Shown here in pieces: positions 13,180 to 64,000 of a DNA stretch of 64,000 nt. The position numbers and the translations under genes are program-made. The stretch comes from Stentor roeselii (taxonomy: Eukaryota > Ciliophora > Heterotrichea > Heterotrichida > Stentoridae), in the NCBI GenBank assembly GCA_006503475.1, contig RSEH01000044.1, positions 124,001 through 188,000 of the forward strand. Direction: 5' to 3'. A model generated the notes under the pieces. That model was not told the origin of the DNA, made no database searches, and saw only the letters and a program-made list of their open reading frames with translations. Within the stretch, counting starts at the first letter, position 1. The number at the start of each line of letters is the position of its first letter.

Positions 13180-14460
13180 CTAAGAATCATGACATTGAAT
13201 GTACTTGAAACAATGAAGAGGACCGAATTCTTGCTTTTTTATGAACACTGATGAGGAACTCCACTCGATGTCTCCCCATTCTAATGATTTGTGGATCGTT
13301 GTTATAAATGGGTCTTCTAATGGAACCCGCTTGTCTTTGAAAAAATCTGCATCTTTTAATAGAAGAGGCTCGTTTACCTGCACCCATCTGTATTTGTCTT
13401 GATGGTCGAAGATCTGCTCTTCTTGGCTCTCGTTAATTAAGGAAAGTTCAAATCTTTGAGTGTGAGTTTCTAAAAATACTACGAAAGTCTTTAAACGAGT
13501 GCTTAAGAAATCTGCTTCATTCCATCCTTTATCTCCGAAGTTTTCTAAAGAATAAGGAAATGCTGGTTCAAAGCTGAGGTCATAAACAATTAAAGTTCCT
13601 GGAATAATCCTTAAAGACTTTATGTTTAGGTTCGGCTTTTGCCGAACCTTTGGGTAATCAGTAGGCATTTTTTCCGCCATTTCAATAAGTTCCTCAATTT
13701 TCCCCAGGCTATTCAAAAAGACGATTTTTTCAGGTTTAATGGAATACCCTTCATAATTCGTGTACTTTTTACTTCTAATTCGATTTCTGATATTGCTAGC
13801 ATAATTTGCCCTACCTTTAGTGACTCTTGTATAAACAGCGATTCCTTCATAATTAGAGCCTATTTCACTCCAGACGTTAAGAAGGCCCATATGATGAATA
13901 ACAGCGACGATATCCGAGTCACTAGTATAAACATCATTTCCCCAAAGGTTCCTAGCGACCAGTTGTTTGTTCCTGGGACTGATGTACTCCCGTGCAACTC
14001 TTATTTCAATGATTTGCTGAAGATAAGGTGTCAGGTCAGGCCAGGGCACGCCAGGCTTATAAAGAAACTTTTCAGTATTGCCCATTGTTGGGACTTCGAC
14101 TGGGAACTCTGCGGATTCTGCCGATTCTTCACTTTCTGATTCACTGTCACTTCGCTTTGATAGTTCTCTGCCTTCTGTTCCTTTTGACTTCATTCGGCCT
14201 CGTGTTGAAGAGCTTCTTCCTCGTTTGACTCCCATCTTTTTCGTCCGGTTTCCTCGATTTTGCTTCTTTTCTTGGCGCGCTGGGTATAAACTACGAACTA
14301 CTTTATTCCTTCGAAGACGCATCGTGTTGCCTTCTTGTTCAGCGTCTGAAGGCTGCTTGCTTTTCTCGTCCTCGTCCATGCTTTCACCTTCGTCACTTGC
14401 TGAGTTGAGTTCTTCGGAGTTTTCACTTTCTTTGCCTTTTGATTGTTTTTTGGGGTCCAT
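13180..14460 (-). CDS. RXT3: Rxt3-like subunit of an Rpd3-type histone deacetylase complex
   Basis: 426 residues. The first 125 are Ser/Glu/Lys/Arg-rich and disordered, with basic clusters that could be nuclear localisation signals (TKKMGVKRGRSSS). The conserved core is in the middle: AREYISPRNKQLVARNLWGN followed by DVYTSDSDIVAVIHHMGLL. This LWGxDVYTxDSDIVAVxxHxG pattern is the hallmark of the Rxt3 histone-deacetylation protein family. The yeast protein belongs to the large Rpd3 complex and represses transcription; the ciliate role is inferred. The start is the ATG after TCATAAATC. Confidence 0.83.
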   Translation of the reverse strand: MDPKKQSKGKESENSEELNSASDEGESMDEDEKSKQPSDAEQEGNTMRLRRNKVVRSLYPARQEKKQNRGNRTKKMGVKRGRSSSTRGRMKSKGTEGRELSKRSDSESESEESAESAEFPVEVPTMGNTEKFLYKPGVPWPDLTPYLQQIIEIRVAREYISPRNKQLVARNLWGNDVYTSDSDIVAVIHHMGLLNVWSEIGSNYEGIAVYTRVTKGRANYASNIRNRIRSKKYTNYEGYSIKPEKIVFLNSLGKIEELIEMAEKMPTDYPKVRQKPNLNIKSLRIIPGTLIVYDLSFEPAFPYSLENFGDKGWNEADFLSTRLKTFVVFLETHTQRFELSLINESQEEQIFDHQDKYRWVQVNEPLLLKDADFFKDKRVPLEDPFITTIHKSLEWGDIEWSSSSVFIKKQEFGPLHCFKYIQCHDS

Positions 14461-14491: not shown

Positions 14492-17400
14492 TTATTTGGC
14501 TAACAAATCAAGTACTTTTGAAAGATTGGTTTGAACTGATGTTATTTTGTTTTCGATTGAATTTACTTTCAGGTTCACGTTGCCTAGTTTGTTCTCGAAT
14601 TCTTTTCTTAAGGATTTTTCAATTCCTGTTACTTTTTGGTTGACTTCTTCGATGTTTTTTTTTATGTTGTCTTCAACTGTAGAGAGCTTTGCATCTACTT
14701 CAGTGACTTTTTCGTGAATGTTGTCAAGACGTCTTTCTTGCTTTTTTTCCATGTACATGATTTTTCCTTGCCAGTCTTGCTGACCGTCATCGTCTTCGAA
14801 AGGCGAGGGCAGAACATGTAAAAAAATGTCACTTCCTGAAAGTTTCCTCCAGAATAAAACTTTTTGGATTTCTAGACAAATTTCTAGTTTTTCAGTGTAG
14901 TCTATGATGTTTCGTTCTAGTGAGAAGTTATCGTATGAGTCACCGAGAATGGATATTAGCATGTTTAGCATTAGTACGACATTGACTACTGTTGCGACTA
15001 TTCCAGTCATGTATGTCATTACGAAGTTCCTGGTGTCTTCCATCTCGATTTCACCGCCGAAGTTCTGGCTCCAGCCTTGGTCCCAAAGGGTGTCGAAACT
15101 GACTTCTCGTCCTTGTGAGATAGTGAAAAGAACTGAAAAAAAGATAGAAGAGTAGCAAAACATGATCAAAAAGTACTTAATACTGTCCAAAGACGTCAGA
15201 ATCAATCGAACATAATATCTTGTTCCATCAACAACGCGAAAAGCAGTTAATCCTCGAATCAAGATCATCAAACCCAAAACGAATTCTTCATATTCACTTT
15301 TAAAATCAAAAACTTCCGCCAAAAAATAGATCAAAATAAGAAAATACATAGAAAGATCAATCCAATTCCAAATTTCACTTAAATGTTCCCTGATGCTAGT
15401 AGAAAAAACCTGTGTCAGTTCCCAAACACACAAGTTAAAGTTAATCACAAGAAAAGGAACATAAATAATTGGATCCGACCTGCCATACTTCATCATCAAG
15501 ATAAAGAAAAAGATATTAAAAAACAGCAAAATCGAGTAAAAAACAGCCCAACCTTTAACCGCTTTCCAATTAAGATCAATATAAAACTTGATAAAAGATG
15601 TTTCATAAATCTTAGAATTTTTACAATTTCTTATAAGTTCCAAATTTTTTATATTTTCCACTGTAAAAGGAAGACCTTTAAATGGAAAAGCAGTAAACTT
15701 AAAAGAAGCTGGTATTTTTTTCTCATTTTCAGGAATCATGAATTTACAAGCACTAGGTTTGTAGTTTTCAGAATAAATAAAAAGTGGAAAATTTTCAATT
15801 TCTGAAATCAGTTCAATTTCAGTCGTCAAAAATATTTTTCCCAAGAAATTCGGGAGTTGTTTTGAAGAATTATCAATAATTATAAAGAAATCATTTCGAA
15901 TAGCATGAAGTGACTGTTCCAAGACCTGTTGATTTTTGGTATGAATGATATAAGTGAGCATCAACTGTGTGCAGTACTGATGTTTGCAGGTGATCGAGTA
16001 AAAAAACGGCGACTTTCCAAATCCATCAGCTTTTATTGTAATATCATTGAAAGGTTTAAGCCATTTCCGCAAAGGTTCACTTTTTCCCTTGAGTGCCAGG
16101 ACATGTAGCACCTGATACATATGCTCAGAGAAGTAAAGCGAAAAAGCTTCTTTTGAAAGGTTTTGATAGTCGTTGTTCCTAATGCAGGTCATCATGTTTT
16201 TAAAAGGAATCGTGTGCTGGATGTATTGATCTAGTGTCGAATAGGGCACCAGCGACATTTTGTTGAAATTTAGAATTTCACTGTTGAGTAGAATAAAGGT
16301 GTTGTAGGACTCTTGGTACTTCAACAGGTCTCTTAAAGGAGAGGAAATATGTAAAGGTCGTTTAAGCTTAAATCTCACTGTTTTCTTCTTGATTTTCACG
16401 ACAAGTGTACCTGATGTTAACTTCAAAATGTAAAAACTTTCAACCGAGTTATTTTCCTTTGTTTCAAGGATTTCGAAGTAAGTCGGATGATTAAGCAACA
16501 AAAATTTTTTATCCATTGAAAAAATGTAAGATGTTGACTGACTTTTATCTTTTCCAGAAATCATTTCTTCTCGTTGCTCCTGAACGTTCCAAAGTTTTAT
16601 CGTGTTGTCTTCAGAGCCACTGACGATGTACTTGAAGTTCTTTGAAAAGTCAACAGACCTGACGACACTTTTATGTCCAATCAATTTAAACTCTTGACGC
16701 TTTTCCAAAACGTTCCAGACTATTATCGAGTTGTCTTCAGACCCGCTGACGATGTACTTCCCGTTCTGGGAAAATACGACGCTCCAAACGACGGAGGTAT
16801 GGCCGTTTAAAGTGAATTCTTCACATTGCTCTTTCACGTTCCAGACCTTCACTGAAGAGTCGCCTGAACCACTCACGACATATCTGCTGTCCTCTGAGAA
16901 AGAAACTGAAAAAACAGTGTCACTATGGCCTTCTAATGAAAACTCTTCGAAATACTCAGACATGTTCCAGAGTTTCACTGAACAGTCAGAAGAACCACTT
17001 GCAAGCATCTTGCTGTCTTTTGATAAACTTATTGACCAAACAGGCCCGGTGTGACCTGATAAGCTGCGTTCTTCTTTTCGAGTCTCAAGATTCCAGATCT
17101 TTATTAATTTATCTTTCGACCCGCTTATCAAGAATCTGTCGTTTGACGAAAAAATCACTGAACGCACCCAGTCCGTATGCCCGAGAAGTGAAAATTCTTC
17201 TTTTCTTTTTAAAACATTCCAAAATTTTATCTGGTTGTCTCTTGCACCACTTGCTATGAACTGACCGTCTTTTGAGAATTTCACTGTTCTTACGCAGGAA
17301 AAGTGACCTATAAGGGAAAATTCTAAGGATTTTTTTGAGATGTTGAAAACTTTTATTGACTCGTCTTCTGAACAGCTTGCTATGTACTTACTGTCTTCTG

Positions 17401-19372
17401 AGATACTTACTGTCCAGACTGTGTTGGAGTGGTCGTTAAAAGAGTGCTCTTCGCACTTTTCTTCTACGTTCCAAACTTTTATTTTTGAATCTGCTCCGCC
17501 GCTGATTATGTTTTTTATGTCTGGAGCGAGGGCTACTACGTGAACTGATTTTGAATGACCATTAAGCGTGAATTCCTCTCTCCTATCTTCAAAATTCCAA
17601 AGTTTAACTGAACCATCACCAGAGCTACTAAGTACAAATTTTCCATCACTAGAAAAAATGACAGAAAAAACCGCTTCAGAATGTCCAGACAACACAAAAG
17701 CCTGAGACTTATCCTGCATATTCCAAGTAATAATTTTCGCGTCTTCAGAGCCACTGATGATAAACTTGCAATCCGGAGAAAAAGCAACAGAAAACACAGT
17801 ATTAGTATGCCCTGCAAAGCTAGATTCTTCCCATTTTTCCAAGAAATTCCAGAGTTTAACCAAGTTATCCCCCGATCCACTACAAATAAACCTTCCATCA
17901 CTAGAGAAGTCAACACAAAGTACCTCATTTGAATGTCCAGAAAACTCAAAAACTTCATTTCTATCATAAAAACTCCAAACTTTCACTTTTCCATCCCCAG
18001 CTCCAGAAGCAATGAAGCAGCTGTCATTAGAAAAGGCAAGACAATAAACGATCCCTTCATGGCCTTCCAAGCAAAACTCTTCTTCTCTAGTCTTGATGTT
18101 CCAAACCCGTATCACACTGTCTCCTCCTCCACTAGCAATAAACAAGTTATCTTGTGAGAACTTGACAGTAAAAACTCCATTTAAATGAGCTTCAAGAGTT
18201 AAAATTTCTTTTCTTTTATTCATATCCCAGAGTTTTAAGTATTTTTCATCATCTCCTGAAACTGCTAAGTTACTGTCCCTTGAAACATCTAAAGTTTTAA
18301 CAGCAGTTTTATGTCCGTTCAATGTGAATTCTTCAGGTTTTGACTGAATGTTCCAAACTCGAATAGTTTTATCAGTGGAGCCAGTTAATACATATTTTTG
18401 ACTTTCAGGAATAGCAAGAGCGAGGACTTGTTCAGTGTGGCCATTAAGAGTAAAGAGCTCTGTCCGCAGTGAAATACTCCAAAGTTTAATAGTACTGTCA
18501 TCTGAGGAACTAATAAGCGTCTTCGCGCCTGTTGTGAAGACTAAACTATTAACAGAGCCAGTATGTCCAAAAAGGGAAAAGTCTACTTTTGTGTCTCGAA
18601 CACTCATGACTTTTATGCAACCTTCTCTGTCCCCAGCAGCGACGAGCCGCCCGTTGTCATTAAGAGTGACTGAAGACTGTTCAGTGCTTGTTTTAAACAT
18701 ATGGTCAATTGCTTTGGTAAAGAAGTTCCAGACCTTCACAGTCCTATCCAAGGAAGATGAAGCTAAAGTGTTTCCATCTTTTGAAATCGCTAACCCCGTG
18801 ATAAAATGAGAATGTGCTTGAAAGCTTAACTCTTGTTTTTTTAACAAAACGTTCCAAACCTTTATACTTGCGTCATTCGATGCACTGATGATGTACTTGT
18901 TGGATGGAGTTACTTGCACTGATGTTACTTCGCCTTCGTGGCCTGTGAAGGTGAATTCTTCAGTTCTTTTCAAGAAATGCCAGAGTTTTATTGTCATGTC
19001 GGCTGAACCGCTTACTATGAATGCCTCTTGATGGGAAAAAGCAATTGACTTTACTTCTTTTGAATGGCCTTCTAAGGTGTACTCTTCATCAAGAAGACCC
19101 AGGTTCCAAACTTTGATGGAACTGTCGGAACAACCACTTGCTGCGTATTTTCCGCATTTTGATATTGATAGACTGAGAACTGAACCTTCATGTGTGCCTA
19201 AGGTAAAGTGATGCCAAACTTCATCTAGTTTACGTTCCATTGTTTCGACTATGTACTGACTCGTGTTTATGTACTTCGACTTTGGAGGCTTTTGCTTGGG
19301 TTCAGGAGAGTCCTCAGTTTTTTCTAGCTCTTTTTTTAGAAGACTTCCTTTCAGAGTCGTGGTGAAATCCAT
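14492..19372 (-). CDS. WD40 (21 repeats) - ankyrin-like - TRP-type ion channel fusion
   Basis: 1,626 residues from the ATG at 19372, which has the AATAATG context; an upstream ATG at 19408 would add 12 residues. After a charged leader come 21 WD40 repeats in register, each 42 residues (about 882 in total), enough for three seven-bladed propellers. Each unit reads EEFxLxGHxxxV...SGSxDxxIKVWN; unit 5 is the most degenerate. Next is an ankyrin-like stretch (GKSPFFYSITCKHQYCTQLM), then a six-helix channel module from about VKGWAVFYSILLFFN to LMLNMLISILGDSYDNF. That last motif, with the re-entrant pore loop before it, is typical of TRP/polycystin-like cation channels. The C-terminus is a coiled coil that could support tetramers. 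No intron is seen in 4.9 kb. Gating and ion choice cannot be told from the sequence. Confidence 0.88.
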   Translation of the reverse strand: MDFTTTLKGSLLKKELEKTEDSPEPKQKPPKSKYINTSQYIVETMERKLDEVWHHFTLGTHEGSVLSLSISKCGKYAASGCSDSSIKVWNLGLLDEEYTLEGHSKEVKSIAFSHQEAFIVSGSADMTIKLWHFLKRTEEFTFTGHEGEVTSVQVTPSNKYIISASNDASIKVWNVLLKKQELSFQAHSHFITGLAISKDGNTLASSSLDRTVKVWNFFTKAIDHMFKTSTEQSSVTLNDNGRLVAAGDREGCIKVMSVRDTKVDFSLFGHTGSVNSLVFTTGAKTLISSSDDSTIKLWSISLRTELFTLNGHTEQVLALAIPESQKYVLTGSTDKTIRVWNIQSKPEEFTLNGHKTAVKTLDVSRDSNLAVSGDDEKYLKLWDMNKRKEILTLEAHLNGVFTVKFSQDNLFIASGGGDSVIRVWNIKTREEEFCLEGHEGIVYCLAFSNDSCFIASGAGDGKVKVWSFYDRNEVFEFSGHSNEVLCVDFSSDGRFICSGSGDNLVKLWNFLEKWEESSFAGHTNTVFSVAFSPDCKFIISGSEDAKIITWNMQDKSQAFVLSGHSEAVFSVIFSSDGKFVLSSSGDGSVKLWNFEDRREEFTLNGHSKSVHVVALAPDIKNIISGGADSKIKVWNVEEKCEEHSFNDHSNTVWTVSISEDSKYIASCSEDESIKVFNISKKSLEFSLIGHFSCVRTVKFSKDGQFIASGARDNQIKFWNVLKRKEEFSLLGHTDWVRSVIFSSNDRFLISGSKDKLIKIWNLETRKEERSLSGHTGPVWSISLSKDSKMLASGSSDCSVKLWNMSEYFEEFSLEGHSDTVFSVSFSEDSRYVVSGSGDSSVKVWNVKEQCEEFTLNGHTSVVWSVVFSQNGKYIVSGSEDNSIIVWNVLEKRQEFKLIGHKSVVRSVDFSKNFKYIVSGSEDNTIKLWNVQEQREEMISGKDKSQSTSYIFSMDKKFLLLNHPTYFEILETKENNSVESFYILKLTSGTLVVKIKKKTVRFKLKRPLHISSPLRDLLKYQESYNTFILLNSEILNFNKMSLVPYSTLDQYIQHTIPFKNMMTCIRNNDYQNLSKEAFSLYFSEHMYQVLHVLALKGKSEPLRKWLKPFNDITIKADGFGKSPFFYSITCKHQYCTQLMLTYIIHTKNQQVLEQSLHAIRNDFFIIIDNSSKQLPNFLGKIFLTTEIELISEIENFPLFIYSENYKPSACKFMIPENEKKIPASFKFTAFPFKGLPFTVENIKNLELIRNCKNSKIYETSFIKFYIDLNWKAVKGWAVFYSILLFFNIFFFILMMKYGRSDPIIYVPFLVINFNLCVWELTQVFSTSIREHLSEIWNWIDLSMYFLILIYFLAEVFDFKSEYEEFVLGLMILIRGLTAFRVVDGTRYYVRLILTSLDSIKYFLIMFCYSSIFFSVLFTISQGREVSFDTLWDQGWSQNFGGEIEMEDTRNFVMTYMTGIVATVVNVVLMLNMLISILGDSYDNFSLERNIIDYTEKLEICLEIQKVLFWRKLSGSDIFLHVLPSPFEDDDGQQDWQGKIMYMEKKQERRLDNIHEKVTEVDAKLSTVEDNIKKNIEEVNQKVTGIEKSLRKEFENKLGNVNLKVNSIENKITSVQTNLSKVLDLLAK
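16550..19200 (-). repeat. 126-bp tandem coding repeats encoding 21 WD40 units
   Basis: The DNA has a 126-bp period, one WD40 repeat per unit, across about 2.65 kb. Neighbouring units share recurring words, for example plus-strand CCAAAGTTTTAT and CCACTGACGATGTACTT, suggesting growth by unequal crossing-over or conversion between units. Confidence 0.8.
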
Positions 19373-48519: not shown

Positions 48520-51500
48520 ATGAGGACTTTCGTTATTTTTCTATTAGGATTCATTTCAGTTCAAGGTGAGGATTAAGTAGGAGGGTCTTTAAGTAACATC
48601 GCATTTTCATTTAGTCCTGAAGGGATTCGAGAGCTTTCAACTTATACTCTGTCTTTTCTGACGAGTTCTGCAGTTGAGTCAACAGCGAAGATAAAGATTA
48701 CATTGCCCTCGGCGTGTTCTGTGGTTTCAACGACTTCTTACAGTTGTTCTTTGAATAACCCGAAAGGATCGACGAGTTCAGCTTATTGTGAGTCAGACTC
48801 AGCTTCTCGAACGATAACGATTCATAATTTTTTCGCGTCTGGGGCAGTGGAAGCTGGTTATATGTATCCTTTTGAGGTGAAACTTAACCAAGTTACCAAC
48901 CCGTTGTCTTCTAAGCCTACTGATCCTATTAGTATTTCGGTTACTACCAGCTCTGGGGCTGTTATTGATTATGATAATAGTAACAGTGTAACTGTCTTTA
49001 CTGCAACACCTGCAACTATTAGTGCTGTTTCTATCGCATCTGGTAATCAGGTTGTGGGAAATGCAACAACTTTTACATTCACAGTCACACCACGTTACTC
49101 AGTGCCAGCTGGTAGCGTGGTCCATATAAAGTTCCCATATTGGAACGGTAACATGAATCCAACAACATTCACTCACATGATCACCGCCTCATCCCCCTCC
49201 TGTGTAGGACTGACAACAATCAGTAGCACCTTATCCTGTTCTTACTCAACCTTAACCCAAGTCTTAAAAGTATCCAGCGGGTTCACCTCTGAAGTAACTG
49301 GTTCTTTTTCATTCCAAGTCGCTTCAGGTCTCAACCCTCCCAACCCAAACTCACTTTCAGGTTTCATTATTTCCTTAAAAGACTCTTCCGAGAACGACTA
49401 CGAAATTTCCAACATTTTTGCATTAAAAGTATCATCTCCTAATTCAATCGTGATAAGTGACTCAGGAATCCAAGCCTCTTCTAAAGTGGTTTCGACATCA
49501 GTCTCTATTGACTTGCTCTGTACTTTGAAAAACCCGATGACGAGTGGATTTTTAGTTGACATCACGATTCCAGCTGATTTTTCCTTTGATAACTCGATGG
49601 GAGTGACTGGAAAAAATGGAATTGCGAAGATTTCTTTGAGTAGAACGATAACTGGAAGTAAAATAAGGATTACTAATGGATACACGTCGTATTCTTCTAC
49701 TAGTCTTTTTTGGGTGCAGATGACTTTGCTTACCACTCCTTCAAGTACTAAAACAACTGGAAGTTTCACGGTTAGCACTTTGACTGCAGAGGGAGAAATC
49801 ATTGACACTGGAACTGGAGCGACTTTTACTGCGATTCCTGGAAATATTTTAAGTTATTTGGGAAATAGTATTGTTACAAGTGATTCTTATACTGTTGAAG
49901 TGACTACGACTTATTACTTTGAATTTGTTATTTCTCATTCTTTACCTACAGGAGCTGCCTTTACAGTAACTTTTCCGTCTTCAGTAGTTCCAAAAACCCG
50001 ATCGTCAAGTCAATGTTCGTCTTACATTTCAAACTTATCCTCAAGTGCTTTATGTTCAGTCTCAGGGCAAGTCTTGACAGTGATCTCAGGTTTTCCCAGT
50101 GGTCTCCTCGCAAATAACTCAATAAAATTCGGTATTAACCAGATAACTAACCCAGTTTCAACATCTCCAACATCAAGTTTCTCAATCATTACTTATACAG
50201 ACTCGACATTGATTTACCAAATAGACTCAGTTTCATCTGGAGTGACTTTCACAGCACTTCCAGCCTCTTTAAAAAGTGTTTCAGTCTCTTCAAGTTCAGA
50301 CATAGTGGGCGAAACAGTAACTCTGACCTTCACAATACAAACCACTTCAACTATACCAACAGGAGGTTCTTTAAAAGTGACATTTCCTTCAGGTGCAAGT
50401 CTTTCAAACACTGCAGCAGCTTCTACCAGCTGTTTAAAACTAGAAGGGTTCAACACAGGAAGTTTCACATGCACAGTGACTTCAAATTCGATATCAATAA
50501 CAACAGGTTTTTTACTTGGTTCTTTCAGTGCAGGGACTTTGAAGTTCTCGATCGGTTCAGCGACGAATCCAGAGTCGACGAAGCCAGTTCAAAGTTTTTC
50601 AGTGACGACTTTCGATGCTTCAGGGTATTCAATTAATTCACTTTCATCAGGAATTTCTTTAAAAGTGAGCACTTTGAATACCTTGACTTCTGTGAGTCTT
50701 TCAATTGCCAGCTTGATCAATGGACAGTCGACGAGTTATACTTTTGAGGTCTCGCCGAAGACTACACTTCCTGCAAACTGTGTCGTGTACCTTGTCCCTC
50801 CCTCTACTGTCACCTTTCCTTCATTCCCGAGCTGCTTCGCAGCGAGCGTCTTGATTTCTAGTATCTCTTGTGGACTTGATAGTGAAGGGAAATTGAAAGT
50901 TAATCTTGTTCTTACATCGTCAGTTGCTTCTGGCACTGGAGTCTCTTTTGGAGTGAAAAATGTGAAAAATCCTCCTTCTACTCAAACAAGTAACAGTTTC
51001 GGAGTTTTTACTTATACAGCGGATTTGTATGGAATTGATAAAATGGAAAATGGAGTCGTTGTAACAACGACCACTCCTGGGAATTTGACGAGTATTTATG
51101 TTACTGCTGGTGATAGTAGAATTTCTGTGAATACTTCTTATACTATTAGCTTTGTTCCTGTTAATTTCCATCCTGTTGGGTCTGTTTTGAGTATCACGAT
51201 TCCAGCGGAATTTTCAGTTGCTGGAGCTGCTTGCTCTTCGACTGTTTTGGAAAGTTTAACTTGTAATTTTGCATCGCGCTTGGTTACGAGTTCAGGGTTT
51301 AGTCGAGCTTTGAGTTCTGCGGATAACTTTTCGATTAAGATTTCGGGAATTACTAATCCGAGTAGTTTAGTCAGTACTTCGACTTGGGGGATTCTGTCGA
51401 GAACGGGAAGTTATTTGATTGACTCAAGTCAGAGTATTAGTTCTAGTTTTACTTGTGATGCGCCTTGTCTAACATGTAAGGATCGGCCATCAAAATGTGA

Positions 51501-54500
51501 TTCTTGTTCAAGTTCAGGAGATTTCCCTTACCTCTACTCCGACACCTGCAACTCGGCATGTCCATCAGGACAATTAGATGAAGTATCAACTGCAGCAAAA
51601 GTATGCGTATCATGTTCTTCATTATGCAAGACCTGTTCAATAATTTCAACAAACTGCACTTCATGCAATTCAGGTAACTGGCCTTACCTTTACCAAAGCA
51701 CCTGCAACTCCAACTGTTTATCAGGATATTACGGAAATGGAACTACCTGCTTGCAATGCTTGAATCCTTGTTTGACGTGTTCTTCGAGTTCAGAATGCAC
51801 TTCTTGCACTGTTAAAAACTCGAGTCCTAACTCAGGTTCTTCCACTTTCTTGTACCTGACATCTTGTGTTGTTACTTGCCCCTCGGGGTATATGGCTAAT
51901 ACTAGCACTTTCAAGTGTGATCAATGCGCTTCGACGTGTAAAGAATGCTCGACAAGTACTTCTTTTTGCACAGGTTGTGCAACTGGCCTTTTTTTATTAA
52001 GCAATACTTGTGTTAGTCAATGCCCAATGAATGGGACATATATAGTAAGCGGTAGCAACTGTCTATCATGTAGCCAACCCTGTATGACATGTTCAGGATC
52101 AGTCTCATCATGTTTAACTTGCATTAATGGTTATTCTCTTTTAAACACTTCATGTGTTTATTCTTGTCCTTCCGGCTATGTAAGTGTAAACAGCACCTGC
52201 TATAAATGCAAGTCTCCTTGTGCTACATGTCAGAAATCAACAAGCATTTGTTTGACTTGCATATCAGACTACGTTCTTTACTCAACTACTTGTCTTTTAG
52301 AATGTCCGAATGGATATGTATCTAATGGGATAAGTTGTGACTTATGTAGTTCCAACTGCTTCACTTGCTCATTAGCTGCTGACATTTGCACCAGCTGTAC
52401 AAATGGCCTTCTACTATTGAATTATAAATGTATCGATGACTGTGGATCTGATAGATATGTTGCTATAGCTGGAGTATGTGAAAAATGCAAATCACCTTGT
52501 GCGACTTGTTCTTCAACTACTAGTTTCTGCAAGACTTGCATAGCGACTTATAAATTATACCAAAATAATTGTATTCCTTCATGCCCTGTAGGTACTACAA
52601 TTGATAAGGGAAGTTCTTGTTCAGACTGTAATAGTTTGTGCAAAACATGCTCGAGTTCGGTAGATACTTGTACTAGTTGCAATTCAGGTAAGTTTCTTGA
52701 AAGTTCGACATGTGTAGACAGTTGTTCTAGTAGCTCTATTTCAGTTTCTGGGGTCTGCACCCAATGTGATTCATCATGTTTCACCTGCTACGGTACTACT
52801 AATAATTGCACTGTTTGCAAAAGTGGACTATTGATGTTTGAGTGGCATTGTTATTCAGACTGTCCTGAAAATTATATAAATGATGGACAAGGTAATTGTG
52901 TGGAAATAAAAAATACTGATTGTAATAATGGATGCACAGCAGCTCTAAAGAGTAACTCTGACTGTGATCAAGAATGTAATGTTTTCGCTTGTGACTATGA
53001 CAACTTCTTATGTATTGGGCCAACTTCCTGCTTGGACGGGCAATACCAGCTTGATAATAAATGTTATAACTGCTTAGATCCTTGCAATAAATGTACAGCT
53101 CCCAAGACTTGCTTGACTTGCGGTATTGGATCAGATGGCAAACAATGGCTCTTTTATGAACCTGATTCGTTTTGCTACCAGAACTGTACAGCCGGTACTT
53201 ATAAAAGTGGAATCGAATGTCTCGATTGTAGTAGTGAATGCAAAACATGCTCTGGAACTAACAAAACTTGTACCTCATGCAAAACTGGATACCTATTATA
53301 TAATTCACAATGCATTCAGAAGTGCCCTTCTGATGTGACTGTTCAAGTAAATTTAACATGTGTCGATTGTGATAGTAATTGTAAATATTGCTCTGTGAGT
53401 TCTACTAATTGTAGCAAGTGCGAAACTGGAAAAGTTCTTCAAGGTACTAAATGCAAACCTACTTGTGATGTAGGGTACATCACTTTATCTGATAGTGCTG
53501 TTTGTCAACAGTGTCAAGGATGCTTAACATGCTCAGGGTCATTAACCTTCTGTACTTCCTGCAGTCAAACCCTTTACCTTCACGAGTCACTCTGCATAGA
53601 GTCATGTCCAGCAGGTACCTTTGCAAACGGAAACATCTGTAAAGCCTGTGATTCGACCTGTGTCACTTGTTCAGCCTCAGGGACTTGCACGTCATGTCCA
53701 AGTGATCGTATCAAATACCTCTCACTTTGCTTGACTTCCTGTCCAGCAGGCTTTGAAGTGACTAACGGTGCATGCACGTTGATAGTCGCTGCATCTGAGT
53801 GCACTCCTGGATGCACTTCAAGCTTCTTGAACAACAACGACTGCGAGCAAATCTGTAATGTTGAATCATGCAATTTCGATAACAAAAACTGCGAACCAAA
53901 GACTGACCAATGCTCTGCAGGGAAGTATTACAATGGAACATTTTGTGTGAACTGCACATCTCCTTGCTTGACTTGTGAGTCACAACAAACTTGTCTTACA
54001 TGTGCGATTAAAGACGGAAAAAAAATGTACTTGTATGGAACTCAATGCTTAAGTACTTGTCCTGCAAAGACTATGGCGAATGGAATTATTTGTCAGGATT
54101 GTAATACAAATTGTGAACAGTGCTCTGGTAGTGTTAATATTTGTGTTGCTTGTCCTACTGGGAAATTCTTGTTTAATCAAACTTGTGTTGTGACGTGTCC
54201 GAATCTTTATTATGTGGCATATGGGACTGTATGTGAACCTTGCAGTACTAACTGCCAGACCTGCTCAATAAAAGTAGATAACTGCACAAGCTGTCCATCA
54301 GGAAAAGTCCTAGAATCAAATATTTGTAAAGAAAAGTGCAGTTCAGGATATACTTTAACAACAGCAATAACTCAAGAATGTCAAAAATGCAGTCATAACT
54401 GTTTAACATGTTCAGGTGAAACTTATCAATGTTTATCATGTATATCTGGGTTCTTCATGTATAACAATCAGTGTGTTTCTGTTTGTCCTTCAAAAACAAC

Positions 54501-57500
54501 AGTAATTTTTGGAACATCTTGCAAGAATTGTGACTCACCCTGTAGCGAATGCTATTCAATTTCAAGTAATTGCACCTTGTGCATAAGTGGTTATTCTTTA
54601 AGTCTAGGTAGATGTCTGTTAAGCTGTCCAGCTGGGTATGAATCTGTGAACTCAACATGTAAGGCCTTGTGCTCAGATAACTGTAGTTATAATAACCTGC
54701 TGGATTCAGTCTGCCAGACCTCATGCAATACTGCAAGCTGTAATTATGACAATGGCATGTGCATTAAACCAACTGTTTGTGATACTTACCAATATCAATC
54801 AGGAAATTCATGCATTGATTGCTCTTATCCCTGTCTCACATGCACTTCAAGTACTTACTGCCTATCATGCAAAACTAGTAAAATTACTTTGAATCAGCTT
54901 TACTATTATAAAGGTCGGTGCTATGATGAATGTCCTGCGAAAACTTATTTAAGTGGGATTGTTTGTCTAGATTGCAGCAGCTCATGCTTTAACTGTACAT
55001 CTACAAATTCGACCTGCATCAGCTGCTCATCTTCTCTAAAACTTTACAAATACTCTTGTTTAGATTCATGCCCTGCAGGCTCAACAATAGAAATCTCAAG
55101 TATCTGCTATGACTGTAGTTCAAACTGTCTACAATGTGCAGGAAGTACATCAAAGTGTACAAAATGCTATTCAGGGACAGTTTTAAGTGCAGGAACTTGT
55201 ATTTCATCTTGTTTATCTGGGTATGTCCTTACGGATACTTCAAATGGTGAATGCATTAAGTGCTCATCTAACTGTAAAACATGTGTAACAGAAACAACGC
55301 GCTGCATAAGCTGCCCAGATGGAAGTTATTTATTTAATACAACATGTGTGAGTCGATGTCCTTCAGGTTATAATTATACCTTGTCAGATCCTACAATATG
55401 TACTCAATGTATATCTGAATGTGTAGAATGCCAAGACTTTTTATATAAATGCACCGCATGTAACTCAGGGTATAAACTGACTGGAAGTAATTGCATGTTA
55501 AATATTGTCAGCACCTGCCCTGCTGGATATACTTTAACTTCGACATCAGGAAATGATTGTTATATGTGTGAGTCTCCTTGCTTGAACTGCTCAGGAACAA
55601 CAACCAATTGTACATCATGCCTCAGCCCTCTTCTTGCTTCTAATGGAAAGTGTGTGACGTGTACTTCACCTTGCCAAACATGTTCAGTTTTACCGACTCT
55701 CTGCTTATCGTGCATTGAAAGTTACTTCCTTTCAGGAACAACATGTAAAGCATGCTCAAATGTCTGCCTGTCGTGTTCTGGTTCTTCATCTTCTTGCATT
55801 TCTTGCGCTTATGGATATTTACTCACAGCTTCCACATGTATGAAATGTGAAAGTCCTTGCATGACCTGTACTTTAGTCCCTAACAACTGTAGTTCTTGCA
55901 TTGATGGAAAATTTTTATTGAACTTCAAGTGTGTGAGCTGTGATGGTTCTTGTCTTACTTGTGAAGGGTCAGTGTCTCGATGCACTAGTTGCCGATCTGG
56001 TTACTTTTTGACTAGTTCTAATGAATGCTCTGTTTGTTCTAGTTCTTGTAAAACATGTGAGGTGGCTTCTAGTCTCTGCTCTAGTTGTTATACAGGAAAA
56101 GTACTAATCGGAAGTGTTTGTGGCAACTGCAATGTGACATGCGCATCATGCTCTCAAGGATTCGATATCTGCGATTCATGTACTGGGTCACTACTATTAA
56201 TTTCAGGTAAATGCGGAGTTTGCTCTTCTAATTGTACAAGCTGCGTTTCAAGTTTCTCAACGTGTGCTAGTTGTAAAGATGGCTATTTCCTAAATGAAGG
56301 AGTTTGCCTGAAGTGTGACCCTATCTGCAAGACCTGTTCAATCATTTCAACAACTTGTTTAAGCTGTTACAATCCATTTAATCTCTTTTCTTTTACTTGT
56401 CAGCTCTGCGAATACCCCTGCAAGACATGTTCAGGGAGAGCTGATTACTGCCTGACATGTGAGTCGACCTATACTTTAATGGGAAGTGCTTGTAAGCATT
56501 GTGAGGGAAACTGCAGTACCTGCGCAGGAACTCCATTGACCTGCACAGGCTGCGGAGACGGGTTTTATTTGGCTGTCACTTCTTGTATCAAATGTTCTTC
56601 TAATTGTTTAACCTGTGACAAAAATCCTCAAAATTGTTTGAGTTGTGCACCAGGAGGGAACTTAACAGCAGGGACTTGTTATTATGTGTGTGCTGATGGG
56701 TATGCACTTATTGGAGCTAATTGTGTTCCTTGTGACCCGAACTGTAAAACATGCGGAGGATCAGTAAGTCAATGCACGTCTTGCAACGAGGCAATATTAT
56801 TTAATAATACTTGTCTCGGGGAGTGTCCAAAAGGCTACTACCTCTCAGGTTCAATATGCAGGACCTGCTCAGACTTATGCATGACGTGCGATTCTACATC
56901 AACAAGTTGTCTCTCTTGCAAGGAAGGTTACAACCTGTTAAAAAGTACTTGCGAGTTAATATGTCCCTTTGGAGAGTACTTCAATAAAGGCCTCTGTTAT
57001 CCTTGCAGTGCAAATTGCTTGACTTGTGAATCGTCTGCCGTCACCTGCTTGACATGTAAAGATGAAAACCAGGTTGTCAGTAGTTTGAAAAGATGTGAAG
57101 TTCCTTGCAGTACGGGATTTGTTAGGAATGAGAAGACAGGATTATGTGATTCATGCAGTTCTCAGTGCAAGGATTGCTTAGGATATGCAAATAATTGCAC
57201 TTTGTGTAATGATACTTCAAAGTTTTTATATCAAGGAGGGTGCTATGTTGAATGCCCAACACTTGTAACAGTCCCAATTAACAATGAATGTGTATCATGT
57301 TCCAGTCCCTGCAAGACCTGTTTAGGCAGTAGAACCCTTTGCATGAGCTGCATAGAAGGAAAATTGCTTTATTACAACAGTTGTGTAAATACTTGTCCCT
57401 CAGGTTTTTCTGCTGAATTTGGATCATGCATCAAATGCGAATATCCTGACTGCAAAATACCAAGTTCTTCTTCAAACACTTCAGAATCCAATTCATCCAG

Positions 57501-60261
57501 TACTTCAAATATCAGTTCAAATGCAAATCAAACTAGTAATAATTATAAACAGTTCACTGGAGACCCTGTACCTTTCCCTTTCACTGGTGCGACTATAGCA
57601 ACCGCTGGAGTTATGGCTGTTAGTAAGTTGACTGCTCCAGGAGTTAACTTTATGAATTCTGTCACTTCTGTCTGGGGATCGATGGCTGCTGTCTCTTGGA
57701 TATTTTTAGGGGCTTATCTGCCAACAGAAGGTCCCTCCCAATACTCAAGAAGATTGAGTATAATAGATTCAAACGACTTGCTACTGAGCATAATAATCCT
57801 TGTGATCCTAACAGCTCTTCTCTTCCACATCTTCTGCAACGTGGCCTACACAACAGGTTTCCTATCAAATCTTTACAAAGGTGACAAAAAATTCCAATCC
57901 TGGCACAAAAGCCACAAATTCGGTTTCCTTTCATTTATCCTTCTCAGCTACTTTCTCTCCTTCCACAGCATTCGAGGACTTTACAGCGGAATGTGCAATC
58001 AAGGGCTATTCAAGGTGGAAATGGAAGATTTCAGTATCCTTAAAAAAGGTCTCGTGAAATTCGGGTACATTTCAATATTTTGCACTCATTTTCCGATGAT
58101 TGCTGCTCAGATAATGATGCTGAATCACTTTGAACAAGGATTTTGGATTTGGATGTTTTCACTTGACTCGCTGATTCTCACAGTCATTTTAACCTTTTTC
58201 ATTTTTTGCGACTTGAGGAAGGTGGAAAGGGACCTGCTGAGATATGAACTTGAAAAAACTCTTCATTTTGATGATGACGAGATGAAACTTGTAAGTGAAG
58301 CAAAAGAAACTCCGCCTTATATGATAGGAAAAAAATTAAAAAAGGGACTTTCTAGGTCTTTTGAACAACTTCCTGAAGGAAAGCCTAAAACTAATAAAAA
58401 ATTAAAAAAAACAGAAAAAATAAAAAGAAATAGTTTACCTCGTCTTGACCTTTCAAATCAAAAAGTTGATGTTTCTGAACTTTTCCTTTACTTTGACAAG
58501 ACCAAGTCTAAAGATGAGCCTTTCTGTGAAAGTATTTTAAACCAAAAAGAATCAAGTTTCATCGAAGACGCAACTTTCATCGAAGATGCGACTTTAATCC
58601 AAGACGCGACTTTCATCCAAGAGCCCTTAACTAACGGTGAGTTTTTTTCTTCACTTGTAATAGAAAAAACCCCAATAAACCGTCCAAAAGTAGCGATTTT
58701 CATGCCATTCTTATTAGATCCAAAAACTGAAGAATTCACAGAAATCGTTGCATTTACCGAAGAAGACTCTCGACAATCAGAAGAAGAAATGCCTTATCTT
58801 TCAGAAATGCCTTATCTTTCAGAAAAGCCAAATCTTTCAGAAAAGCCAAATCTTTCAGAAAAGCCAAATCTTTCAGAAATGCCAAGTCTTTCAGACTTGG
58901 CCGAGCCAATGAGAGAAGACCAGAGTTTTCCGAAAATCATTCAAAGTGACGAAGAATCAGACCACCTTGGAACGATCTTAGAAGAAAACGAGTTAGAACT
59001 AGAAAAAGCCATCGCCGACCTCGACGAACCTGACTTTCTCACAGTTCCTCACAAGGAAACCGGCAGAAGGGTAAAAATAAAAAAAGACTTCAAAGGCGCC
59101 AGGGTGGTCGACTTGGAAAACAACGTAATCGAGGCTCTTTCCCCTGTCGACTCTCAAAACATCGACCCTTCGAAGACCCTCGTCGATGAAACAGATGTTC
59201 GTTTCGCTTTGATCACTACCAGGTCTGGTAAACGACTGAGAGTCAAAAGAAACTTCAAAGGTGCACGAATTGTTGACTTGGAAAAAAGAACTACGAGTCC
59301 TTTTTCATTTCTTATTGGAAAATCTGTTGAAAATGAGCAAGAGTTCAAATTTCAAAACGCCTATCCTGACCCTGAAGACCCAGAAATTGTGATCGTCACG
59401 CATAAGGAAACTGGAGAAGATGTGAAAGTAAGAAAAACATTTCAAAATGCAAGTATTGTTGATGATACAGGAAGAGTTATTCCTTCTGCTATTCCTGTTG
59501 ATAGAAATGATTTTGATATTCAGAAAACGATTGTTGACTCTCAGGATGTTCACCTTGCGACTCTTAGTCATAAACTTACTAAGGCGAGGGTTAGGGTTAG
59601 AAGGGATTTTAAAGGAGCGAAGATTATTGACCTTGAAAATAAAGTTGAGAATAAAAAGTTTGAAAGGATTCAGGAAAGTGATGAATTTAGTGAACCTGAA
59701 CAGTTGTCTATTGATCTTAGTGACTTGGAATTCCCTGTTAGTCATGAGAGGAAAAAAATTAATATTAGTCCTGTTGGGATTAAAAAAAAAGAAAGTAATG
59801 AAAGGGAAAGACTTAAGGAACTTGCTAAGATTATTCAAGAGGAGTCACAAGTTGGAAATTTAATTGTTGAACATCCTAGATTGGCACAGGGTAAAGAGTT
59901 TGACTTTTTCCCTGAACCGGAAATTCCCCATTACCGAGATTTAGATGAGGAGTTTGACTTAGAATTTAAACCTGACAATGAAATAGATGACAGTCTTGAA
60001 CTAATTGAATTCGACCTTTCAAAAAAATCTCCAAGAAGAAAAGAAAGAAAATTTCAGATAATGAATGACTCAAAAGCTAGAGAATTAGGTGAAATTTACC
60101 TGGAAATTCAAGGAGTCAGGGGTACCAGCAGAAGAAGGGCCTCAGATGACCAGAATTGGCTTGAATTTGAAAAGATTAACGAGAGAAGAGATATCAGCTC
60201 GCGAACTGCACCACTTGGAAAGGCTGGGGAGCAGATTATTTTAGGTAAGTTTAGAAAATAG
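48520..60261 (+). CDS. Giant cysteine-rich surface protein (Ig-like, furin-like and LNR repeats, multi-TM, repeat-bearing tail)
   Basis: 3,908 residues from exons 48520-48565 and 48581-60261. The true start lies in a short first exon encoding a signal peptide (MRTFVIFLLGFISVQG). Residues about 17-970 hold around seven Ser/Thr-rich beta-sandwich repeats with a recurring TxPxGSxxxITFP strand. Residues about 970-2970 are several dozen furin/GCC-like Cys units (CxxC...CxSCxxG), interrupted by three Lin12-Notch-type repeats, e.g. CNVFACDYDNFLC, CNVESCNFDNKNC and CNTASCNYDNGMC. A Ser/Asn stalk leads to six or seven membrane helices (about 3018-3232). The cytosolic tail has 6-residue repeats and four copies of a module of about 55 residues (HKETGRRVKIKKDFKGARVV). 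It is probably a surface receptor or adhesin; ligand unknown. A second copy begins at 62947. Confidence 0.9.
48566..48580 (+). other. 15-nt intron after the signal peptide of the giant surface protein
   Basis: GTGAGGATTAAGTAG, in-frame TAA, A at position 10; 5' site GTGAG is unusual for the set. Splicing gives FISVQG-GSLSNIAFSFSPEGIREL. The paralogue at 62947 has an intron at the equivalent place (phase 1). Confidence 0.92.
58558..58623 (+). repeat. 18-bp tandem repeat (FIEDAT) in the tail of the giant protein
   Basis: Nearly four copies of TTCATCGAAGACGCAACT, encoding FIEDAT, FIEDAT, LIQDAT and FIQE. The length is in frame, so copy-number change would not disrupt the protein. Confidence 0.85.
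58786..58893 (+). repeat. 18-bp tandem repeat (EMPYLS/EKPNLS), six copies
   Basis: Six in-frame 18-bp units encode EMPYLS twice, EKPNLS three times and EMPSLS once. The three middle units are identical or nearly so, indicating recent expansion. Confidence 0.9.
59020..59670 (+). repeat. Four intragenic copies of a module of about 55 residues in the cytosolic tail
   Basis: Each copy holds T/S-x-K-x-T-G-x-x-V-K/R-V followed by FKGAR/K-V/I-V/I-D. Copies start near VPHKETGRRVKI, TTRSGKRLRVKR, VTHKETGEDVKV and LSHKLTKARVRV. The third copy reads FQNASIV instead of FKGARIV. The basic, beta-rich units may bind lipid or protein; the family was not recognised. Confidence 0.75.
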
Positions 60262-62946: not shown

Positions 62947-64000
62947 ATGAAAATCCCTCTCTTACTGATGATAATCTCTCAGGTCCTCAGTAATTTTTAC
63001 TAAGGTAGCGGCTTCAACCTAATCGAATTCAGCTTCAGTCCTCAAGGTATTCGTGAAGTAAGCCAATACTACTTAAAGTTCATGACATCTTCAGCGATTC
63101 CATCGACCGCCCTGATTAAAATAACCCTGCCATCAGAATGTTCGATTTCCAGCTCTTCGACTTACGACTGCACCCTGACGAACCCTCAAGGATCTACTTC
63201 ATCGGCTTACTGTGTATCTGACTCGTCTTCTCTTTCAGTAACGATTTACAACTTTTTCACTTCTGGGTCAGTGGCAGCGAATTACGCATTTCCCTTTACA
63301 GTGACCTTAAACTCAGTGACTAATCCTAAGTCGAATAAACCTACAAGTTCAATTGCTTTATCAGTGACTTCAAGTGCTGGAGTTGTGATTGACTCAGACA
63401 GCGAAAATACGAATACGATAATCGTTGCAACTGCAGCTACAGTATTTTCTGCTTCGATTTCATCGAATTCTCAGGTTGTTGGAAGTTCAGCTACTTTGAC
63501 ATTCACGATTACTCCTACGTACTCCATTCCTTCGGGAAGTGTCATTCAGGTCCAGTTTCCTTATTGGAATAAGGCCATGGGAGCGACTGGCTCGAATCTT
63601 GCGCATATTATTTCAGGGACTGCACCGACATGTGTCGGAACAATAAACATGGCATCATCACTCTCATGCAGCTACTCAACAGCTTCACAGATCTTAAAGG
63701 TAAGCAACGGTTTTACAACGGAGAGGACAGGAACAATAGCCTTTACGGTAGGATCATGCACGAATCCTCCTAACCCGAATTCATTATCAGACTTTACAGT
63801 GTACATAAGAGATTCAAGTGATTACGACTACGAGATATCAAACACTCTTTCACTGAAAGTCACGACATCAAATTCAATAACCATCGGCGATTCAAACGTA
63901 AACCCGAGCATAACAACAGTTTCAACATCAACAACAATCAGCTTATCATTCACGATAAAGAACCCAATGGGCAGTGGGTTCATGATAGACATCACTGTTC
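62947..64000 (+). CDS. Giant surface protein paralogue, 5' part only (runs off window)
   Basis: Exon 1 (62947-62989) encodes a signal peptide (MKIPLLLMIISQVLS); a 15-nt intron follows; exon 2 (63005 onward) stays open to the window end, giving 346 residues. It parallels the gene at 48520 block by block: IEFSFSPQGIREVSQYYLKF, IKITLPSECSISSSSTYDC, NPQGSTSSAYC, VTNPKSNKP, VGSSATLTFTITPTYSIPSG and VQFPYWNKAMG. The intron position is the same. It is therefore a tandem paralogue, separated from the first by TAF5 and one other gene on the opposite strand. The Cys-rich and membrane parts are beyond the window. Confidence 0.92.
62990..63004 (+). other. 15-nt intron of the second giant surface gene
   Basis: GTAATTTTTACTAAG, in-frame stop (TAA) when unspliced, A at position 10, phase 1, placed just after the signal peptide as in the first copy. 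Confidence 0.9.

Follow-up and report, generated by a model that had tools for sequence, protein, structure and literature searches.

A WD40 array and a predicted six-helix channel encoded in one reading frame, and the large gene family to which the gene belongs

One gene in the window, by which we mean the whole 64,000-nucleotide stretch of DNA that was analysed, encodes 21 WD40 units, a short ankyrin-type piece, a predicted six-helix channel and a coiled coil, in that order, and it belongs to a large gene family, missed by the initial annotation, with at least 72 channel relatives in the same genome. Our best reading, in which we place moderate confidence, is that the product would be a cation channel whose gating or position depends on a WD40 array that binds partners in the cytosol. 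The gene lies on the minus strand, which had previously been left unstated, and occupies 14492..19372 as a single uninterrupted frame, 1,626 codons followed by a stop (ATG at 19372, TAA at 14492-14494), giving a protein of 1,626 aa when read with the stop codons of the standard code. From stop to stop the frame covers 1,643 codons, and an in-frame GTG start is also present 36 bases upstream of the ATG. A scan for tiny introns returned two possible introns of 15 bases, a count not above that of other lengths. The 1,626-codon frame and the family profiles described below support the claim that WD40 units, an ankyrin-like piece, a six-helix channel and a coiled coil are carried by one gene, and the WD40 array is, as claimed, the unusual part of this channel. 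The adjoining downstream gene (13180-14460, minus strand) matched Rxt3, a histone deacetylation protein, with E 3.1e-11.

The WD40 array spans 16586..19213 on the minus strand (residues 54-929), and its units, which follow a 42-residue register, were recognised both by a profile of our own and by Pfam PF00400. Our profile gave an i-Evalue of 3.5e-15 or better for every unit, values that are circular in that it was built from the same 21 units; independently of it, PF00400 matched 20 stretches with a protein E of 1.1e-198. The spacing from unit to unit was 42 residues in 19 of 20 cases and 41 in one, in agreement with the 21 in-register 42-residue units originally described. In a PDB search, the nearest solved chain was 2ymu, a repetitive WD40 protein (E 3.5e-143), and bacterial or designed repetitive propellers of this kind (2ymu, PkwA 5yzv) are the closest solved sequences to the array, although, unlike the window protein, they have no membrane part. 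A DNA-level tandem repeat was looked for in the array gene and not found, and the regularity is therefore maintained at the protein level. With a mean unit-unit identity of 0.37, the units are old and have not been homogenised; at the four face positions mapped from Podospora below, the 21 units carry 21 different combinations, and the most variable positions of the array include, among others, the face positions of the diversified clade discussed below. The proposal that the units form three propellers held in part: 21 units fit 3 x 7, but closure into propellers was not confirmed, since AlphaFold2 run on the single sequence reached a mean pLDDT of only 32.2 for the array and there was no seven-unit periodicity. 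This model, like that of the C-terminal half, was unusable. Duplication propeller by propeller was likewise without support, unit identity at lag 7 (0.388) not being above the mean (0.393).

Downstream of the array, the ankyrin-type piece lies at 15935..16126 on the minus strand, about residues 1083-1146 (LHVLALKG...DGFGKSPFFYSITCKHQYCTQLMLTYII). It was located by a family profile of the C-terminal half, to which ankyrin chains of the PDB matched at about profile positions 133-200, and by Ank_2 matches in relatives; NOMPC was among the PDB matches of this whole-half profile, through the ankyrin piece only. Among 27 aligned C-terminal halves (an alignment that omits L058, a fragment from a neighbouring gene, and the interrupted or incomplete C31, C288, C80 and first copy of C339), Ank_2 was found in 24 and Ion_trans in 14. 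When the channel part was searched alone, Ion_trans was detected in 19 of the 27 relatives (best E 2.2e-11) and PKD_channel in 5. The C-terminal half of the window member by itself gave no Ion_trans or ankyrin Pfam match at E up to 10, and a PDB search with it, taken to E 5, gave no channel, so that the identity of both parts rests on the family. The ankyrin-like piece that had been proposed is supported by the 24 relatives, not by a Pfam match of the window member itself.

The six-helix channel was placed at 14933..15550 on the minus strand, about residues 1275-1480, by family hydropathy, by the match of the channel profile to 6pw4 (E 2.5e-5) and by the Ion_trans matches in 19 of 27 relatives. 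Hydropathy averaged over the 27 relatives showed nine stretches, which group as six hydrophobic cores peaking near residues 1285, 1311, 1346, 1372, 1410 and 1464; the topology predicted from it has six membrane-spanning helices and places a pore loop between S5 and S6. The sixth-helix motif, NVVLMLNMLISILGDSYDNF, is nearly invariant, with N1464, M1468, L1469, N1470, I1473, L1476 and F1483 identical in all 27 sequences. A putative pore-loop stretch (GWSQNFGGEIE, residues 1433-1443, 15044..15076 on the minus strand) lies between the fifth and sixth cores, and its W1434 is present in 22 of 27 relatives. After S6, the place of the TRP helix or TRP box in TRP channels, there is a conserved helical stretch. 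The last ~90 residues (about 1534-1625, 14498..14773 on the minus strand) are predicted to form a long coiled-coil helix, which was the only part of the single-sequence AlphaFold2 model of the C-terminal half (mean pLDDT 40.8) with a pLDDT around 60-80, the values over residues 1534-1625 being about 50-79; coiled tails are also present in relatives. In having a C-terminal coiled coil, with a weak TRPM_tetra match that stayed below threshold (22.4 bits against 26.6), the protein resembles TRPM channels, but no TRPM homology region was found and the TRPM_tetra match may reflect coiled-coil composition only.

Family searches covered a 44.4-Mb genome, in which the contig of the window gene is C324. 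The full protein gave 103 matches, with 29 candidates scored; the 72 channel relatives, a lower bound, come from a search with the channel half, in which 72 of 219 candidates were scored and all 72 counted, and channel matches at C106, C47 and C421 fell outside the 72 when a member of another class served as query. For 51 of the 72, a WD40 match lay on the same strand and no farther away than the same open frame extends. Among the 21 without a shown WD40 match, four are short or interrupted (C31, C19, C288 and C403), and the other 17 may have one further upstream. WD40 units were read directly in 28 frames. By profile, there were 28 units in C4 and C427, both complete, and 28 in C27, C73 and the second copy of C339 (5' end missing in all three), 25 in C145 and 24 in C146; the window gene and C165 have 21 each, and the first copy of C339 has 14. 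L061, a member of a distant class, has the same domain order in 1,173 aa, with 11 WD40 profile hits spanning about 14 units. The layout is thus shared across the family, with about 14 to 28 units per paralog and a varying number of blades. A quick tree grouped the window gene with the first copy of C273 and C2 (support 0.92).

The WD40 part of all seven close paralog pairs had a dN/dS of 0.23-0.36, and the ankyrin and channel part one of 0.21-0.23; the WD40 and channel halves are maintained together. Some copies are decaying, given the internal stops in C31, C288 and C19 and a single in-frame TAG within the channel region of L053 (C80, near 83199), which is likely a decaying copy. On one small contig, C425, two members (L057 and L058) lie in opposite directions and are 86-89% identical, the result either of a recent inverted duplication or of a fold-back in the assembly. 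The channel profile found no relatives in viral and genome contig collections of viruses, bacteria and archaea, a search with little bearing on other eukaryotes. The same genome also contains many ordinary Ion_trans genes (162 matches), among them about a dozen or more frames of ~1,400-1,860 aa with several Ion_trans each, of the four-domain Cav/Nav type, and many single-domain genes; given these matches, the WD40-channel family adds to an already large channel set.

Diversified arrays, likewise missed by the initial annotation, were seen at C427, C27, C339 (256285-264000), C145, C4 and C146 (L005-L028). Their 41-residue units are 0.60-0.70 identical within C427, C27, C339 and C145, and 0.58-0.59 within C4 and C146. 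With the units numbered so that H = 8 and W = 36, pN at positions 10, 11, 13 and 29 was 0.55, 0.54, 0.60 and 0.45, against a mean pS of 0.396; it was lower at positions 7, 9, 19, 24 and 31 and low at the remaining positions, while the channel side had a pN/pS of 0.24. The exposed positions 39-41 and 43 are conserved in the C427 and C4 clades. Outside the variable positions, the nearest unit lay within the same gene for 93 of 147 units and was the unit at the same place (+-1) of a close paralog for only 10, although in the C427-type pairs under comparison the channel halves share about 82-85% identity, which points to homogenisation within genes.

In a codon likelihood analysis of the C427 clade, run with a custom script using shared branch lengths, omega was 2.36 at positions 10, 11, 13 and 29 (2dlnL against 1: 55.4), which were chosen from the same data as tested, and 0.152 for the rest. 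For the C4/C146 pair, omega above 1 was favoured too, at a divergence near saturation; for C425a/b it was not favoured (omega 0.67, 2dlnL 0.9, 6 units), and for C178/C375 none of five units was usable. Since positional partners are mostly not nearest units, units that are not orthologous are set against each other in these positional tests. In 24 reciprocal nearest unit pairs, whose choice by scaffold identity biases the scaffold rate downward, pN/pS at the clade's own sites was 0.74 (95% 0.48-1.13), with synonymous change there also high. The hypervariability of the face positions in the diversified clade is firm, and diversifying selection at these positions in the C427 clade, though unproven, is likely. 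Because the hypervariability sits on the binding face, a partner-binding role in this clade is supported.

A comparable pattern is known from the NACHT-WD40 (HNWD) proteins HET-D and HET-E of Podospora, in which, according to PMC1805685, positive selection acts on codons 7, 9, 25 and 27, placed around codons 8 and 26, which are constrained. We aligned the constrained codons to V12 and D30, a pair likewise 18 apart, so that the selected codons map to positions 11, 13, 29 and 31. Three of these four are among the four fastest positions of C427-type units; omega at the mapped positions was 1.35 (2dlnL 8.05), and 0.4 for position 31 alone. The mapped positions carry 124 combinations in 147 units, and 55 combinations in 69 units are reported for Podospora. 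HET-D and HET-E thus resemble the C427 and C4 clades in having many near-identical units, homogenisation within genes and variable residues at corresponding face positions. They differ in their internal unit identity, over 80% (PMC12222747) compared with 0.58-0.70 in the C427 and C4 clades and 0.37 in the window member, which is not homogenised, and in having NACHT and effector domains where the present family has a membrane channel. A search of the C-terminal half, 672 residues long, at E up to 10 gave no NACHT or NB-ARC match, and just 53 residues precede the array. It is conceivable, although we consider it rather unlikely, that the family would form a germline-encoded recognition repertoire with an ion channel as output, in which recognition would open or modulate a TRP-like channel and arrays would be homogenised within genes while face residues are kept diverse, as they are in the NLRs of fungal allorecognition. 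The window gene would then be one of its conserved members, which do not diversify.

By homology, the window protein would be a channel subunit from a large family of cation channels with six helices, within the TRP/voltage-gated superfamily. The subunits would form tetramers by way of the pore domain and the coiled coil at the C-terminus, and the N-terminal WD40 array would lie in the cytosol, folded into one or more beta-propellers (three, if arranged 7 + 7 + 7). We infer that the array would bind protein partners, and that the short ankyrin-type piece, together with the linker leading into the first membrane helix, could carry the binding state to the gate, so that binding may gate or position the channel. 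The array might instead be a tether or docking scaffold (to cytoskeleton, cilia or cortex) that places or pulls the channel in the manner of the NOMPC ankyrin springs, rather than a sensor of soluble partners, which we regard as a lesser but real possibility. The very long cytosolic array, whose unit count stays stable at about 14 to 28, the ankyrin-type piece ahead of the channel and the low unit identity of the window array, as expected of a fixed scaffold, would all suit a tether; propellers, however, are generally compact rather than spring-like, and in the C427 and C4 clades it is the binding face that varies while the exposed positions 39-41 and 43 are conserved.

That the six helices belong to a channel class other than TRP (PKD-, Kv- or Nav-like) appears improbable, and would be compatible with either the partner-binding or the tether reading. 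Among the best 60 of 111 PDB matches of the channel profile, the first was the TRP-like channel 6pw4, followed at similar E by the Kv1 chains Kv1.3 and Kv1.2, then by TRPM8, with weaker matches to TRPV6, TRPV4, TRPV3 and sodium channels. We take 6pw4 to be Chlamydomonas TRP1, an organism also named in PMC7935092. The mixture of TRP with Kv and Nav chains, together with PKD_channel in 5 of 27 relatives, speaks for another six-helix class and makes the TRP assignment tentative. The rank of 6pw4, the TRPM8 and TRPV chains aligning over S1-S5 or S2-S6 (among the same best 60 of 111), the ankyrin-type piece ahead of the channel, and the basic residues of the fourth helix (1373, 1379, 1385, 1389), spaced 6, 6 and 4 rather than at every third position, nevertheless argue against a non-TRP class. 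That two neighbouring genes were joined by an artefact of assembly or annotation is very unlikely, since both halves are under purifying selection in seven of seven pairs, and the same one-frame order recurs at 51 of 72 loci on many contigs.

With the ankyrin TRPs (NOMPC, TRPV) and 6pw4 the window protein shares the six-helix pore domain and a preceding ankyrin-type piece; it differs in having only a short ankyrin piece and a 21-unit WD40 array in front. Channels read cues from inside or outside the cell through cytosolic domains, and a family of 72 or more genes in which a generic partner-binding array is coupled to a channel would represent a sensor layout of a new kind. Stentor mechanoreceptor channels have reportedly been described physiologically (Wood 1988), and if the single-celled host, probably a ciliate, is a heterotrich such as Stentor, which is plausible, the WD40-channel genes would be candidates for its sensory channels. 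If the diversified clade were a recognition repertoire, WD40 recognition and channel output, known separately, would be united in one chain. Among the search listings of openly licensed PMC papers, no WD40-TRP fusion was described, and a term search of PMC9371601 was negative; automatic database entries may exist. Elsewhere in the window, a frame of 3,852 aa at 48703-60261 on the plus strand contains many cysteine repeats and matched Pfam VSP (E 2.2e-10) as well as Furin-like_2, and the start of a similar frame lies at 63082, the window ending inside it.
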